Assembly (NCBI GenBank): GCA_023256475.1
Contig: JAGDXP010000012.1
Span: forward strand, 124,001 to 188,000
Direction: 5' to 3'
DNA: 64,000 nt
From: Thermoplasmata archaeon
GTDB taxonomy: Archaea; Thermoplasmatota; Thermoplasmata; Thermoplasmatales; GCA-001856825
Below, piece after piece: positions 17,879 to 25,288 of the stretch. Under the pieces are notes generated by a model that worked only from the letters and a program-made list of their open reading frames with translations, was not told where the DNA came from and searched no databases. A program made the position numbers and the translations under genes. The number at the start of each line of letters is the position of its first letter. Within the stretch, counting starts at the first letter, position 1.

Positions 17879-20800
17879 GTGGATTTAATGGGTGGTGCAG
17901 AACAAACTACTATGACAAGGATTGCAAGAATCAAATCATACATTGCCAAGAATTACATTGGAATTACCCTGGTGCTATCCTTCTTCTTATCCCTATTTCT
18001 CAGTTCATTTTATATAATAGGGGTAGCAGTTAAGGGGAATTTTGCGGTCTCAGGCGGTTCAGATGCATATTATAATATGAGGATAATACAATATATATTG
18101 GCGACGCACCACCAGCTTTTATTCGATCCATTATTGAATTATCCTATTGGATTGGAAAACCCGAGACCTCCGTTCTTCCACTGGCTCGCAGTGTTGCTAG
18201 GGTATGCTTTCTCTCCGTTTCTCGGAGGAGTTTATAAATCCACAATGACCATGTTCTTACTTGAGACAGCCATTGGAGGAGCGTTCATTGTTTTCCCTAC
18301 ATATCTTCTTGGCAAAGAAGTATTTAATAAAAAGGTAGGCCTAATCGGCGCTATTTTAGCTGCATTGAGCCCATTAACATTGATGAAATCCATAGCTTCC
18401 ATTGGGCTATTTGATATTTTTACAGCTTTATTTGCCATTATGATGATATATTTCTTTTTAAAGGCAGTAGACACATTCAAGGAGGTTGAGGGATCGAATA
18501 TTAGTATTAGGATAATCAAATCAATTAAAGCCAATAGAATATCAATTTTATACTCAATACTCGGGGGGGTTAGTCTAGCCGCCTCCATGTTGACATGGGT
18601 TGGAACCATATCAGTGGCGCTAATAATAGTTGGAGTAGGAATAATTCAATTGATAATTAACACTATTAGAAGAAAATCCAATCTTGCATTCTTTGTACCT
18701 TCATTGTTTTATTCAGTAGGATTCATTTTGGCACTTCCCTGGTATTACGAAACCGGATTCATTTTTAGGTGGACACCAGTATTTCTAGTCTGGTTGTTGC
18801 TCATAATATCATCATTATTTGTTATAATATTGGAAAAGAAACCTTGGATAATAACAATAGGAAGCTACATACTGCTGGTGGCAGCAGCAATTGTTATTGT
18901 ATACTTCAAGGATAATTCCCTATTGCAGAGCATTATTTCAGGGCAACACTATTTCATCAAGAACAAGATTTATGATACCATAGCTGAAGCACAGGCTTTA
19001 CCTCTTGGGGAAGATATAATGGAATTTGATCCTTTCATGTTCTTTGCATCCCTAGTTGCCATCGGCGTCCTTATATATAAATGGATAAAGATTAAGGATT
19101 TCAAGACGACGTTGATTTTGTTCTATTCAGCTGGAATTATATTTATATCCATGATAGCTTCTAAGTTCCTTTACTTTGGAGCATCCGCCACAGGAATATT
19201 AACTGCATATATGATAGTTGAAGGCTTCAATAAACTTGGCTGGCACGAATCATTGGATAAAGTCAAGGGCCGTGGTATCTCAAAGGCATCTCTCAAGGAG
19301 TTAAGATTCTCTCAAATAGTTGTGATTTTAATGGTTATATTCCTATTGATAGTTCCTGCAACGTTCTATGCCCTTGACTCAGGAATACCATATAATAACA
19401 AAACACAATATGACAGGCAGATTTATAACGCTACTCCTCCATTTTTAAGGCCACAAAACTATACGCCCCCCTATTATTTGGGTGCATTTGGAGTCTCATT
19501 GGATTTGCCAAACTCTCCATGGGTAAGGGCATTGGATTGGTTTAAAAATCAAGATGCCCAATATCCACCCAATGAGAGGCCCGCATTTATATCATGGTGG
19601 GACTATGGTTTCCAAACATTGGAGCAAGGGGATCATCCGGTGATGGCAGATAACTTCCAGGACGGTATTTATCCTGCAGCTCAAATTTTGATGGCCCAGA
19701 ATGAGAGTGAAATAATTTCAGTCATGATAGCTAGGATAATAGATTATTTCAATCAATATAATCAACTGAATAACTCCACACTTAAATCAATACTAATTCA
19801 ATATTTCGGTACTTCGGGGTACCAAAAGATCGTAAATTATGAATTAAATGGGCCCAATTATATCCCAGATATATATGCCAATAGGTCATATTATGGTCCA
19901 TATGAAGATATACAGCCAGGTGATGCGAAGTACATATTAATTGAGCATTATTTGGCGAATACATTCAGCCTATCAACCATTATAAATGCCTACCAAAGCC
20001 TTGAACTAGCAACAGGATTTTACATGAACTATATTGCCGTTGATTATAGGCTATTCCCGTTCTCAGGCGTAGATACAGGTATCTTTTATGCTCCAGCTTA
20101 CCTTGGTGATTTCCAGTATATTAACGTTCAGGGGGAAATAGTTCCTATAGATTTCTACAATATAACAGTAACAGATATAAACGGAAACACCTACCCGCTG
20201 CAAGATTTCCCACCCGGTGACACTGCGGTCAGTTACAACATAAATTATCAACCAATGTTTTATAATTCCACCGTTTATAGAGTCTTCATAGGATATCCTT
20301 CGTCTGTAGTTGGAGTAAACAATTCCATTCCTGGAATATCATCCAATCTCAGATATTACTATCCCATGCAGGCATGGGGAATGCCCAATTTCGAATTGGT
20401 GTATAAGACCGTTTTCTGGAATCCTTATACAGATTACCAGAACCATTCAAATGCCTGGCAGCCTGTTTCATTGGAACAGGGTTACTATTATCTGAAACAT
20501 CACATAGGAACTGTTGATTTGAATCCTCCCGCTTCAAGCGTACTACCCAGCGATGTGGTATTTGTGGAATATTATCCTGGGGCTATAATACAAGGGAGGA
20601 TAACTGACTCTTCAGGCATGCCTATAGCAGGTGTAAGGGTAACCATAGATGATCAATACGGCATACCTCATGAATCAGTCCTCACAAATTCATCAGGATA
20701 TTATCAATTATATGCAGTTGCTGGAAATGACACTATCGTTGTTTCCACAGGCTCCTACAATAGCTTGTTCATGGTTGGCAATAATATCTTGGAAACATAC

Positions 20801-23800
20801 AACATTTCAATTTCTCAATCCCAGGCTGATAGAACTGCCTATTCCAATACAGGACAGCCATTATGGATAATAGACAAGAACTTCCAGATCAGTGCTCATT
20901 CATTGGCCGGTACAGTATTTTACAATTTGGCCGGGATAAGCTCATTTATTCCTAATACAGATATCCCTGCCAATGCAACGCTGAAATTCTTCAATTCCAG
21001 TGAAAATTATTCTTTATCTGTTAAGACAGGTCTCAATGGTTCTTATTACATAGCAGACCTTCCACCATATGAATACAATATTTCAGCATATGTAGATGGA
21101 CAATGGTACTATGATGTTGCGAATGTGAACATTAATTCAAACTCCACATCGAAGGACATTCCAATTCCATATTCAAAAATAAATGTTAATTTCATCAATA
21201 ACTTCCAAACAAATGGTTTGAATATAATCAAGATAACAAGGGGCAACTTCAGTCAATTTATGAATATTTCTGGTTCGAATTCTAAGATTGTGTTGCCTAC
21301 GGGAATTTTCAATTTATCAGCGGAGAATGGTCCCTACAGATACAACACGATCTTAAATTTAGAAAACAAGGGGAATATTACATTAAATGTAACTTATGAA
21401 AAGTACTATTACTTGAATATAACAGAATCTGGAAGCTATAAGATAATTTCAGCAAGCTTCCAGGATCTACTGAATAATTCGTATTCAGGAGAGTTCAATG
21501 TATTGAACAATAGTTTATCCGCGTATTTGCCGCCCTCCATATATTTGATTACGTCAACATCCATAAGATCAGGTATTTATTATCTGAATGAAACAACTGT
21601 AGAACTCAATAATTCATTATCTATTGAACCAAGATTCCAAGAGGCTTCAATGGTTACAGGAACTGTATATAATGGTAATAAAACCCAGCCCGGTGTCCCG
21701 GTGGAATTCATAGGGAATGGGTTGATGCTACAATTTACTACAAATTCCACAGGTCAATTTAAGGCCTATCTGCCATATGGGAAATATTCAGTTACTGCGT
21801 ATTTCACCTATAACTCAAGTACATATGTTTCCAGCGGTCAATATTCAATATTTACGCCGGAGTATAATTTACAGATCTACTCAGTTCCAGGGTACACCGT
21901 AGCAGGTTACATAAAGACAACTAATCCAGGAATTATTACTGCCTATTCCAATGGAATTCCGATTTATTATGAAGTTCTCACAAAAGGGCAGAAATATTTG
22001 ATATACCTACCCAATGGAACCCAGCTTAATTCAATTACATTTAATTCCTTAGGTCAAAGCTATGTAGCTCAAGGATACAACATATCTACTATCCTATCTC
22101 CAGTGAATGTTAATTTCTTGATTGAATCAAACTACAATTATGTTTATTACATTCACCTAAAAGGTCCAAAAGATTACAATATCACAGCGCTAGGGCATCA
22201 AATACAAGCATTTGTGCAACCGGGTAGCTATGAAGTTTATCTAACCGGAAATGGCATAATCCCGGTGTCGAATGTTACATCAATTAATATTTTACCTGTT
22301 TACAATGGGCAAATTATCAAATTACCGGTTAATGTTTATATAAAGCTGAGCGTAAACACAAAAGGCAATGTAGAAATATTCAAGGATGGTAAGCTGGTTA
22401 GTCAGCTTCTAAATTCAACACTTACCCCAGGCAATTATACTATCTATTCGAACTATTATTATACATCAAATATAACAACTGTGAACATATCTGTCAATAC
22501 TACTTTCACACCAATCTTAGTTCAATCTTATTTCCTGAACATCATAAATAAGGTATCAAGCAACGCTTACATATCAGCCGGTGAAAATCTCATTAGTACT
22601 TCCACAGGAATTTACTTGCCTGCAGGTTATTATTACGTATATTCATTTAACAGGATAAATACCTCTTATGAGTACTTTGGAAGTTCAATGGTGAGCCTAC
22701 CTTCTCAGCAAACAGCATATTTGAATTCCAGCATAGTGGAACTTTTGGGTAATGTTAAATTTAGTACCTTCAATTCCACAACAAATTCTGGAGTTGTACA
22801 AATACAGCCTTTGAATTATACCGTTCCATTTAATTCATATGTTGAACTGCCCTATGGAAATTACAGTATTTATGCGGTTTCTGGCGGATTCGCATATATT
22901 GGAACTCTAAATGTAAACAACAAATGGGAAAATATTACCCTGAATCTTGTTAGGTCGTATCCATTGACATACAGTAGCTTTATTGAGGGTAATGCATACA
23001 ATAGTGATATCTACATAGCAGATATGGGCACTAAATTCTATGTTAAACCCATGGGAACCATTAATCTTCCCAACGGTTCCTATATTTTCCAGGGGGCTAC
23101 GAAGTTGATGAATTATGGGAGATACAACAATTATATCCTTGACCAGGAGGTTAATGTTACAGGACCAACCTATGCAACCCTTGAGTTTCAAATTGTGAAG
23201 AAAATAGATGTTCAAATATTCCCCATGGGAGGTCAGCTTACTGGGTTGCCTGGTCACAATGTTAGTTTTCCCATTCAAATAATTAGCAATTCCAACATTC
23301 CAATTTCATTCACATTAACAAACTCCTCTACTTTCAATGTTTACAACCAGTATCTTAATTTGACTCCATACTCCATGGGAATCATAAATGCAACTATAGG
23401 CGTTCCAAAGGGTCAGCCAGCCGGAAGCTATCAGATAGGAATGAATCTACAGTATCTTGGTATATATCATTATATAAGCGTCAATGTCACTGTTCCTACC
23501 TTGATATCTCTGAATGTTACGCTCAACAACAATTCAGGAAGTGTATTTGGAAATACTATATATTATGAGCTAAACATTAAAAATACAGGAAATTCAAAAC
23601 TAAATATTACCATAAGCGTGCTGAATAACGCCAGCTTGAAACAGGAAGGCATAAATGTTTCAGTAAACAACCGTTACTACTCAAGCATCCTACTTTATCC
23701 CAACCAATTTAATCAGACCAGTATAGGCCTGTCATTCCAGAATGGGATATACAACGTAAATACGCCAGTAGTAATAGAGGTAAAGTATGGAAATCAGAGC

Positions 23801-23983
23801 TATTTGTATAACCTTTACCCAACTATACCAGGGCTTGAGTTCAAAGCAATCCAGGCCAAGGGCTATGGTATTCAGAATTATAGCGCTCTGGTACAATATA
23901 GTTATATGGCCGGTGTTATAATATTTGTAGTAGCGCTCATAGTGGCTATAATGATTTCAGTAAGAAGGAGGAACAGAGCATGA
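17879..23983 (+). CDS. aglB: Oligosaccharyltransferase STT3/AglB with very long C-terminal repeat-rich extracytoplasmic tail and C-terminal TM
   Basis: GT-C polytopic N-terminus, GGSDAYYNMR, catalytic WWDYG at 19595-19609; tail with CarboxypepD_reg-like units (GRITDSSGMPIAGVRVTIDD..NSSGYYQLY; GTVYNGNKTQPGVPVEF..NSTGQFKAYLPYGKY) and TM near the end; GTG 17879 or ATG 17888. Confidence 0.88.
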   Translation: MDLMGGAEQTTMTRIARIKSYIAKNYIGITLVLSFFLSLFLSSFYIIGVAVKGNFAVSGGSDAYYNMRIIQYILATHHQLLFDPLLNYPIGLENPRPPFFHWLAVLLGYAFSPFLGGVYKSTMTMFLLETAIGGAFIVFPTYLLGKEVFNKKVGLIGAILAALSPLTLMKSIASIGLFDIFTALFAIMMIYFFLKAVDTFKEVEGSNISIRIIKSIKANRISILYSILGGVSLAASMLTWVGTISVALIIVGVGIIQLIINTIRRKSNLAFFVPSLFYSVGFILALPWYYETGFIFRWTPVFLVWLLLIISSLFVIILEKKPWIITIGSYILLVAAAIVIVYFKDNSLLQSIISGQHYFIKNKIYDTIAEAQALPLGEDIMEFDPFMFFASLVAIGVLIYKWIKIKDFKTTLILFYSAGIIFISMIASKFLYFGASATGILTAYMIVEGFNKLGWHESLDKVKGRGISKASLKELRFSQIVVILMVIFLLIVPATFYALDSGIPYNNKTQYDRQIYNATPPFLRPQNYTPPYYLGAFGVSLDLPNSPWVRALDWFKNQDAQYPPNERPAFISWWDYGFQTLEQGDHPVMADNFQDGIYPAAQILMAQNESEIISVMIARIIDYFNQYNQLNNSTLKSILIQYFGTSGYQKIVNYELNGPNYIPDIYANRSYYGPYEDIQPGDAKYILIEHYLANTFSLSTIINAYQSLELATGFYMNYIAVDYRLFPFSGVDTGIFYAPAYLGDFQYINVQGEIVPIDFYNITVTDINGNTYPLQDFPPGDTAVSYNINYQPMFYNSTVYRVFIGYPSSVVGVNNSIPGISSNLRYYYPMQAWGMPNFELVYKTVFWNPYTDYQNHSNAWQPVSLEQGYYYLKHHIGTVDLNPPASSVLPSDVVFVEYYPGAIIQGRITDSSGMPIAGVRVTIDDQYGIPHESVLTNSSGYYQLYAVAGNDTIVVSTGSYNSLFMVGNNILETYNISISQSQADRTAYSNTGQPLWIIDKNFQISAHSLAGTVFYNLAGISSFIPNTDIPANATLKFFNSSENYSLSVKTGLNGSYYIADLPPYEYNISAYVDGQWYYDVANVNINSNSTSKDIPIPYSKINVNFINNFQTNGLNIIKITRGNFSQFMNISGSNSKIVLPTGIFNLSAENGPYRYNTILNLENKGNITLNVTYEKYYYLNITESGSYKIISASFQDLLNNSYSGEFNVLNNSLSAYLPPSIYLITSTSIRSGIYYLNETTVELNNSLSIEPRFQEASMVTGTVYNGNKTQPGVPVEFIGNGLMLQFTTNSTGQFKAYLPYGKYSVTAYFTYNSSTYVSSGQYSIFTPEYNLQIYSVPGYTVAGYIKTTNPGIITAYSNGIPIYYEVLTKGQKYLIYLPNGTQLNSITFNSLGQSYVAQGYNISTILSPVNVNFLIESNYNYVYYIHLKGPKDYNITALGHQIQAFVQPGSYEVYLTGNGIIPVSNVTSINILPVYNGQIIKLPVNVYIKLSVNTKGNVEIFKDGKLVSQLLNSTLTPGNYTIYSNYYYTSNITTVNISVNTTFTPILVQSYFLNIINKVSSNAYISAGENLISTSTGIYLPAGYYYVYSFNRINTSYEYFGSSMVSLPSQQTAYLNSSIVELLGNVKFSTFNSTTNSGVVQIQPLNYTVPFNSYVELPYGNYSIYAVSGGFAYIGTLNVNNKWENITLNLVRSYPLTYSSFIEGNAYNSDIYIADMGTKFYVKPMGTINLPNGSYIFQGATKLMNYGRYNNYILDQEVNVTGPTYATLEFQIVKKIDVQIFPMGGQLTGLPGHNVSFPIQIISNSNIPISFTLTNSSTFNVYNQYLNLTPYSMGIINATIGVPKGQPAGSYQIGMNLQYLGIYHYISVNVTVPTLISLNVTLNNNSGSVFGNTIYYELNIKNTGNSKLNITISVLNNASLKQEGINVSVNNRYYSSILLYPNQFNQTSIGLSFQNGIYNVNTPVVIEVKYGNQSYLYNLYPTIPGLEFKAIQAKGYGIQNYSALVQYSYMAGVIIFVVALIVAIMISVRRRNRA

Positions 23984-24720
23984 AGCTAGTCCCATTCCTG
24001 CTTGCTTTTATTATATTGTTACCAGCACTTTCATACGCGGTTACAAACACTTATGGACCTGTGACCATAACAGGTCCCGAAAAGGTTGCCATAGGACAGA
24101 CATTCAACTATACAGTAAATGTGGAACAAATTTTCAACCATTACAAAATAGTCTTTTTACTTAGCGGATATAATTTGACTGGAGCATCTCCAATTTCACC
24201 GCAGTATCTGAACGGTACATTTACCCCACAGAACTTCACCATAACGGCTCCCTCTGTTCAGACAACTTTATTCCTGTTCTTCCAGATTATCGCCTATCTG
24301 AATGGACAGGTTTTCTATTACAATATAACCCAAACGGTTCAAGTGCTTAACTATACGGTTCTAAAGGTAAAAGTTTATAACCCAACTAAATTCATATTCA
24401 AGGATCTGAACGTCTCCTTCTATGTTAATGGGGAATACGTCGGAAGCTCTCAGTTAAACATTTCAGGGAACACAACAGAGAACGTAACTTATCAGTGGTT
24501 ATCTGGGACGCTGTCTCCGGGTATATATAACATTCAGGCAAAGATCAACAGCAGTGTCGTGAAACTCATAGGTGGCAAATATAGCATAGATATACAAGTG
24601 GGAAATCCGTATTTAGAGTATGTATATATAATAATAGCAATAGTTCTAGCTATGGTTGTGGTAATCGTTCTGATCACCGCCATATATAATAGAAGAAATA
24701 AACCTAAATGGAAGAAATAA
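23980..24720 (+). CDS. Exported single-pass membrane protein, translationally coupled to STT3
   Basis: Signal peptide, Asn-rich ectodomain with several N-x-S/T, C-terminal TM plus basic tail RRNKPKWKK; 4-bp ATGA overlap with STT3 stop. Confidence 0.75.
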   Translation: MKLVPFLLAFIILLPALSYAVTNTYGPVTITGPEKVAIGQTFNYTVNVEQIFNHYKIVFLLSGYNLTGASPISPQYLNGTFTPQNFTITAPSVQTTLFLFFQIIAYLNGQVFYYNITQTVQVLNYTVLKVKVYNPTKFIFKDLNVSFYVNGEYVGSSQLNISGNTTENVTYQWLSGTLSPGIYNIQAKINSSVVKLIGGKYSIDIQVGNPYLEYVYIIIAIVLAMVVVIVLITAIYNRRNKPKWKK

Positions 24721-24721
24721 T

Positions 24722-25288
24722 CTATCTCTTAATTTTTCTATTTCTCCTTTCAATTATATCGCTGCTAGTAGCTATTTTAATGGCAGCTTCCCAGTCCCTA
24801 CCTCTTTTAAGCGATTTAGAAGATCCATCTTCTCTAATTATTTCAAGATCGTAATTTTTCAGGGTTGTTATTATCTTTTCCCTGTTAGCTCTATCACCAT
24901 TACCAATTTTAATCCTCAATCTATCGTAATCACACTGCTGTGTCACGCTATCAACATATTTCAAAACATCGTTTAATTCATACAGATTCCTCGAATCTAA
25001 TACCTGGCCATCAGAAATTGTTGCTACCCCTGGGTTTGGGCCTGGATCTATTCCTATTATCAGCTCCTTAGCATGGCCGGATAGGAGCATTTGCCTTATC
25101 CAATATTCATTTTTTCCATTAGTCCTATAGCAGTTGCTGAAGTTCAACTCCATGTCCGAGAAAACTATATCATAATCGCTTATTCCGTCTGTGCTTATCA
25201 AAGAAGTAAAATTAATTCTCATTCCCTTCAAGATATTTACAAGTCTATAATAGACACGAAAGTCTGAAGTTATAACGCCAACCCGCAC
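24722..25288 (-). CDS. Archaeal protein with RNase H-fold/RuvC-like motif
   Basis: ELIIGIDPGPNPGVATISDGQVLDS resembles RuvC-fold first strand. Confidence 0.5.
   Translation of the reverse strand: MRVGVITSDFRVYYRLVNILKGMRINFTSLISTDGISDYDIVFSDMELNFSNCYRTNGKNEYWIRQMLLSGHAKELIIGIDPGPNPGVATISDGQVLDSRNLYELNDVLKYVDSVTQQCDYDRLRIKIGNGDRANREKIITTLKNYDLEIIREDGSSKSLKRGRDWEAAIKIATSSDIIERRNRKIKR

Follow-up and report, generated by a model that had tools for sequence, protein, structure and literature searches.

A doubled-size STT3/AglB oligosaccharyltransferase with a tightly linked membrane partner across the class Thermoplasmata: a candidate two-subunit enzyme

A 64,000-nucleotide stretch of archaeal DNA (hereafter the window), taken from a draft genome that is 89% complete, encodes an STT3/AglB oligosaccharyltransferase (OST) of 2034 residues and, starting inside its stop codon, a single-pass membrane protein of 246 residues. 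This arrangement is no peculiarity of the window: a doubled-size STT3 with a linked partner is the norm across the class Thermoplasmata. The sequence signature of the catalytic domain, the architecture of the two proteins, their conservation throughout the class and the tight linkage of their genes are established below. From the linkage we infer that STT3 and partner are likely to form a physical complex. In reviews, the OST of archaea is a single-subunit enzyme (PMC7226087), archaeal homologues of the accessory subunits were not found by Lombard in 2016 (PMC4973528), and Ost1 and Ost3/6 have been predicted, among archaea, only in TACK and Asgard lineages (PMC11417166). No description of the giant STT3 form or of its partner was found in the open-access literature searched. 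The kind of enzyme is already known; its giant architecture and its partner are new.

Layout of the gene pair

The first-pass annotation had reported a 2034-residue STT3 frame with GGSDAYYNMR, a WWDYG at 19595-19609 and a terminal membrane helix with RRRNRA, followed by a 246-residue gene beginning within the STT3 stop codon. All of these elements were found where it had placed them, together with a TIAE motif; the WWDYG reads SWWDYG in context. The features of the pair are as follows.

17879..23983, + strand: gene of the giant oligosaccharyltransferase STT3/AglB, with a GTG start and a product of 2034 aa (ORF, Pfam, NCBIfam, homologues)
17879..19393, + strand: N-terminal multi-pass membrane domain, about residues 1-505 (hydropathy; PF02516 at 61-492; profile alignment to A. 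fulgidus AglB, 5gmy)
18053..18064, + strand: GGSD62, first DXD-type motif, counterpart of A. fulgidus AglB Asp47 (D62 invariant, 39/39; 5gmy alignment)
18407..18415, + strand: position of the second DXD motif, L177-F178-D179, degenerate (alignments)
18977..18988, + strand: TIAE motif, residues 367-370, counterpart of TIXE Glu360 (T367, I368 and E370 invariant, 39/39)
19394..20563, + strand: extracytoplasmic AglB core and next conserved region, about residues 506-895 (Pfam, conservation profile)
19595..19609, + strand: WWDYG sequon-recognition motif, residues 573-577 (invariant, 39/39)
20561..23833, + strand: string of beta-sandwich (transthyretin (TTR)/Ig-like) domains, about residues 895-1985, rich in sequons (AF2 model, NOMO2 profile match, 51 sequons)
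20588..20761, + strand: first CarboxypepD_reg/transthyretin-like domain, residues 904-961 (PF13620), one of the best-conserved parts of the protein
20651..20671, + strand: invariant D-x-Y-x-x-P-H motif (DQYGIPH, residues 925-931) in the first CarboxypepD_reg domain (39/39)
23882..23974, + strand: C-terminal transmembrane helix of STT3, residues 2002-2032, then basic end (model, hydropathy)
23966..23971, + strand: AGGAGG, ribosome-binding-type site for the partner within the last STT3 codons, a few nucleotides 5′ of the partner ATG
23980..24720, + strand: partner gene, overlapping STT3 by 4 nt and encoding a single-pass membrane protein of 246 aa
23980..24039, + strand: partner signal peptide, about residues 1-20 (model helix 3-17)
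24061..24348, + strand: partner Ig-like domain 1, residues 28-123 (AF2 model, pLDDT 88)
24352..24600, + strand: partner Ig-like domain 2, CARDB-like, residues 125-207 (AF2 model; CARDB in 31/32 members)
24607..24696, + strand: partner transmembrane helix, residues 210-239 (AF2 model)
24703..24717, + strand: partner cytosolic C-terminal PKWKK (conservation)

The STT3 stop and the partner start share the sequence ATGA (23980-23983), hence the four-nucleotide overlap. Seventy of 83 distinct pairs have a Shine-Dalgarno-like 4-mer in the stretch corresponding to the AGGAGG. On the opposite (-) strand, a convergent gene of 188 aa without Pfam match occupies 24722-25288; convergent ORFs with similar starts lie downstream of the STT3-partner pair in families f1 and f2.

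The catalytic core

Sequence evidence strongly supports the identification of the protein as an STT3/AglB oligosaccharyltransferase. The Pfam STT3 family (PF02516) matches residues 61-492 with 42.9 bits against a cut-off of 24.5, identifying the GT-C domain. The NCBIfam model archaeo_STT3 (TIGR04154, the archaeosortase A system-associated subfamily) matches residues 31-655 with 202.4 bits, under its curated cut-off of 450, a value reached in none of the 11 complete genomes of the order. GGSD (D62), TIAE (E370) and WWDYG, motifs whose catalytic roles in AglB have been described (PMC8342417), are invariant in 39 of 39 homologues, and a profile alignment places them opposite D47, E360 and WWDYG in A. 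fulgidus AglB (5gmy). This profile alignment covers profile positions 10-632 and stops at about residue 633, before the region of the DK motif (DxxKxxxM/I).

The second DXD site diverges. Alignment of homologues shows a D or H kept only at the second position of the motif, which reads L-x-D in the family of the window, G-x-D in f2, D-W-D in the DHVE2-type f3 and R-x-H in f6, the last in all 18 sequences of that family in the alignment. This metal-binding motif represents a catalytic metal site that swaps ligands between families. Even with the altered metal site, activity of the enzyme is very likely, because complete genomes contain no STT3 besides the giant form and N-glycans have been documented in Thermoplasmatales, the archaellins of Oxyplasma bearing eight each (PMC12448462). 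The former statement holds for 11 single-contig genomes of the order, where the other matches of the STT3 search were stretches of 50-90 residues in ORFs of about 560-670 aa.

Distribution and linkage of the pair

An STT3 match was obtained in 110 of 117 genomes, representing 31 of the 33 genera of the order, with intact ORFs mostly of 2030-2130 aa. When the wider class is included (111 ORFs), lengths cluster between 2033 and 2232 aa, a few ORFs being truncated or shorter. Scanning named genomes gave 575 confirmed loci, 80 of which were kept; Thermoplasma, Acidiplasma, Cuniculiplasma, Aciduliprofundum/DHVE2 and Methanomassiliicoccales are among them, and I-plasma (L074) is related to the window at the family level. 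The size of the protein, initially flagged as unusual, is so by comparison with characterised AglBs (875 aa in A. fulgidus) but is ordinary within the Thermoplasmata. That the tail was joined to the enzyme by fusion of two genes in a metagenome assembly could be suspected from the draft state of the source genome. The probability of such an artefact is negligible, as uninterrupted ORFs of 2030-2230 aa occur in many independent genomes. Of the 33 genera, 31 have a match, most with ORFs of 2030-2130 aa, and the long ORFs in single-contig genomes led us to reject it.

Relative to the STT3 stop, the partner starts at exactly -4 nt in 64 of 83 distinct pairs and between -7 and +7 nt in 82, the exception lying at +38. 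Where several in-frame starts were available the one nearest -4 was chosen, so the -4 count is biased in that direction; adjacency is independent of the choice. Every complete STT3 locus with enough downstream DNA has the partner (at L088 only 269 bases follow). Of 295 genomes drawn across the phylum, 108 belong to the class (a hand count from the resulting table), in 17 families; every one of them has the partner, with E values of about 1e-18 or better, and both genes are collinear in 20 of the 21 class genomes outside the order. The pattern expected if the first-pass proposal of a two-component OST were wrong, a partner absent from or unlinked in relatives, was therefore not seen. As to the proposal itself, genetic association holds in all 83 distinct pairs and 108/108 class genomes, and physical partnership is what these data suggest. 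A caveat applies here, as linkage and translational coupling can equally mark membership of a shared pathway. Distance-matrix correlations (core-partner 0.79, tail-partner 0.80, core-tail 0.88) do not discriminate, since vertical inheritance alone would give them.

Outside the class, the two genes are collinear in three genomes (G121, G131 and G140), and most other lineages match the partner only through the CARDB-like domain 2 of other proteins. STT3 ORFs there are between about 930 and 3124 aa long, the longest seen being at G149:C9:49573-51444. A classical-size AglB passing TIGR04154 was found in only three of these genomes (G127, G136, G142).

Two loci deserve separate mention. In L064 (G069:C2:265500-274000) the STT3 frame is split into parts of 1232 and 893 aa that overlap by 38 nt, through a frameshift, a programmed event or a true split. 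This locus was at one point a candidate for lacking the partner; the candidate was dropped when the partner was found directly downstream, just beyond the stretch first examined. The genome of the window also holds a second STT3 copy, cut by a contig end (L002, G000:C2:14432-15760); it is 65% identical to the copy in the window, and its identity to the sister genus is 64-69%. The ORF upstream of it resembles the DUF255 gene upstream of the window STT3. L002 may be a paralogous locus or sit on a foreign contig in the draft genome.

The C-terminal arm

The 1100 or so residues that follow the catalytic region contain three CarboxypepD_reg stretches by Pfam, the best at 904-961, bearing out the first-pass reading of this segment. 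An AlphaFold2 (AF2) model of the tail, built on 39 homologues, is entirely beta between residues 895 and 1985, approximately, and closes with a terminal helix. Its pLDDT of 81.6 with a pTM of 0.38 indicates that the domains are well formed and their mutual placement uncertain. The terminal helix is transmembrane by hydropathy, and a C-terminal transmembrane helix was found in 108 of 111 ORFs checked; the arm thus returns to the membrane and has no free outward end.

Constraint along the arm is uneven. Mean conservation of the first TTR-like domain (residues 901-950) is 0.68, compared to 0.71 for the WWDYG block (551-600), and falls to 0.30-0.45 past residue 1000 or so. Within this domain, D925, Y927, P930 and H931 of the D-x-Y-x-x-P-H motif are invariant in 39/39 homologues. 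The constraint on the first tail domain nearly equals that on the catalytic core, which suggests that this domain probably packs on the core. The short forms of the protein (1425-1442 aa; L046, L123, L124 and L143, from Acidiplasma aeolicum and relatives) keep the partner and the C-terminal helix. L046, the one aligned in detail, lacks residues 1282-1886 or thereabouts, some 600 aa of the middle of the arm, and retains the first and last arm domains; arm length is therefore flexible and the ends are conserved. Such forms represent a natural deletion experiment.

The N-x-S/T sites remarked upon initially are indeed in excess: the arm (residues 881-1985) has 51 sequons versus 23.4 +/- 4.1 in shuffled sequences (median of 50 in 39 arms), and the partner ectodomain has 11 versus 3.1 expected. 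This excess suggests that both ectodomains are probably extracellular and themselves substrates of glycosylation.

Searched with the tail profile, solved structures yielded NOMO2 (9c7v_B) as the best match, with an E value of 6.8e-11 at the level of a single domain; bacterial adhesins, a sialidase and carboxypeptidases came next. Pfam recognises NOMO_5th in 8 of 39 tails and the EMC7 beta-sandwich in 6 of 39. NOMO and EMC7 are eukaryotic membrane-protein biogenesis factors, and these matches may reflect a shared ancient domain. A Foldseek search of the whole arm against the PDB returned generic multi-Ig proteins with low TM-scores, NOMO not being among the top 50 matches. No functional inference is drawn from Foldseek, for the arm or for the partner, because matches of both are generic tandem-Ig proteins with low TM-scores. 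We take the NOMO similarity as homology of single domains within a large superfamily, and use it as a functional analogy only. The label "adhesin-like" originally given to the tail proved too narrow for a series of transthyretin/Ig-like domains that opens with one constrained like the catalytic core.

The same annotation had suggested that the tail could serve as a tether between enzyme and S-layer, or bind glycan (taken here as surface glycans) or acceptor. Sequon-rich, adhesin-type beta-sandwiches would suit this role, and possible points of contact exist: two species are covered by a dense, unordered layer that is probably glycoprotein (PMC12448462), Picrophilus has an S-layer, and surface layers as well as S-layer-like genes, the latter in I-plasma among others, have been reported for some acid-mine plasmas (PMC3750248). 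Most Thermoplasmatales, however, have no S-layer (PMC12448462), and the architecture is class-wide, extending far beyond acidophiles to include Methanomassiliicoccales. Neither the membrane helix that ends the arm in 108 of 111 ORFs nor the core-like constraint on its first domain would be expected of a tether. The suggestion fared poorly against these data and we regard it as quite improbable.

The partner protein

The AF2 model of the partner (pLDDT 88.2) comprises a helix at residues 3-17, beta-sandwiches at 28-123 and 125-207, a helix at 210-239 and the terminal PKWKK, in agreement with the signal peptide, ectodomain, membrane helix and basic tail first read from its sequence. P242, K243 and W244 are invariant among 43 members of the order, and PKW[KR] is present in the partner C-terminus of 67 of 83 distinct pairs. 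The last 15 residues contain on average 6.9 K/R and 0.1 D/E.

Comparisons with known subunits gave little. CARDB was recognised by Pfam in 31 of 32 partner homologues; ribophorin, OST48, Swp1 and Ost3/6 families were absent from their listed Pfam matches, and TRAP_beta matched just one of the 32, at a non-significant E of 0.01. Searching genomes for OST3/6 produced only short, thioredoxin-sized frames (127-171 aa). The possibility that the partner is a known OST or TRAP subunit was rejected on these grounds. Foldseek again retrieved generic tandem-Ig proteins from the PDB, with low TM-scores.

A CARDB-like domain 2 is common in other surface proteins of the Thermoplasmatota, and this, together with the sequon-rich ectodomain (11 versus 3.1), raises the alternative that the partner is a coexpressed exported protein with CARDB/Ig-like domains (a surface glycoprotein, a chaperone or a major substrate) and the STT3 tail a structural stalk of the enzyme's own. 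But the gene for a substrate or an adhesin would hardly stay at -4 nt behind STT3 throughout a class, and such a protein would not be expected to retain its single-pass topology or a cytosolic PKW motif that is invariant. We consider this alternative unlikely.

A proposed two-subunit enzyme

The interpretation we favour, and hold to be reasonably probable, is that of an obligate heterodimeric oligosaccharyltransferase of a Thermoplasmatales archaeon, made of the giant STT3 with its fused arm and of the partner as accessory subunit. The invariance of the motifs, the status of the giant form as sole STT3, the linkage, the short-arm forms that keep the pair, the models and the NOMO2 match all suggest it. 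Against it one can set the single-domain nature of the NOMO match, the generic Ig folds, the variable length of the arm and the degenerate second DXD.

In the heterodimer, the multi-pass STT3 domain would take the lipid-linked glycan and the WWDYG core would read the sequon, both as in AglB. The arm of transthyretin/Ig-like domains, about 1100 residues long, would fold back to the membrane through its last helix, with its first domain (the one bearing D-x-Y-x-x-P-H) packing on the catalytic core. The rest of the arm might act as a cage or holdase that covers the active site or the protein-export exit and holds unfolded acceptor chains there. Produced from the same message by translational coupling, the partner would stabilise the enzyme, exposing two Ig-like domains outside and, beyond its one membrane helix, a conserved basic tail inside, for which the ribosome, SecY or lipid head groups are possible docking sites. 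The specific jobs given here to the arm and to the basic tail are tentative. A bolder reading, which we deem rather unlikely, is that Thermoplasmata evolved a multi-subunit, translocon-coupled OST independently of TACK, Asgard and eukaryotes, with a built-in NOMO-like arm handling emerging acceptors and a TRAP/Ost1-like partner docking at the ribosome-SecY exit through its basic PKWKK.

If true, a class-wide partner outside TACK and Asgard would mean that a multi-subunit OST had been reached independently a second time, and would open to test what leads OSTs to acquire accessory parts, be it folding control, the holding of substrates or coupling to ribosome and translocon. It would also help explain how a single enzyme N-glycosylates the surface proteins of archaea that mostly lack an S-layer, some of them living near pH 1.

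Comparison with known systems

The window STT3 shares with archaeal AglB (A. fulgidus AglB-L, 5gmy/3waj/7e9s; TIGR04154) the multi-pass STT3 domain, the first D motif, TIXE and WWDYG. A. fulgidus AglB differs in being 875 aa long, without such a beta-sandwich arm or a C-terminal transmembrane helix, in having an intact second motif (D161-x-H163) where that of the window STT3 is degenerate, and in having no described partner subunit. The multi-subunit OST of eukaryotes, TACK and Asgard (Ost1/ribophorin I, Ost3/6) likewise combines a catalytic STT3 with accessory membrane proteins, and Ost1 has a cytosolic ribosome-binding part (PMC11417166), whereas Ost1, Ost3/6, OST48 and Swp1 do not figure among the Pfam matches listed for 32 homologues of the window partner. 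TRAP alpha and beta, situated at the translocon beside OST (PMC11186639), resemble the partner in their signal peptide, Ig-like lumenal domain, one transmembrane helix and cytosolic tail. The partner differs from them in having two Ig-like domains and no significant TRAP_beta match. NOMO, of the BOS complex in the multipass translocon, is like the arm a long chain of transthyretin/prealbumin-like domains, and has a single C-terminal transmembrane helix. At the ER translocon, NOMO forms an elongated arm (PMC11186639). The likeness between the two is at the single-domain level and, unlike NOMO, the arm of the window protein is fused to an STT3 catalytic domain.
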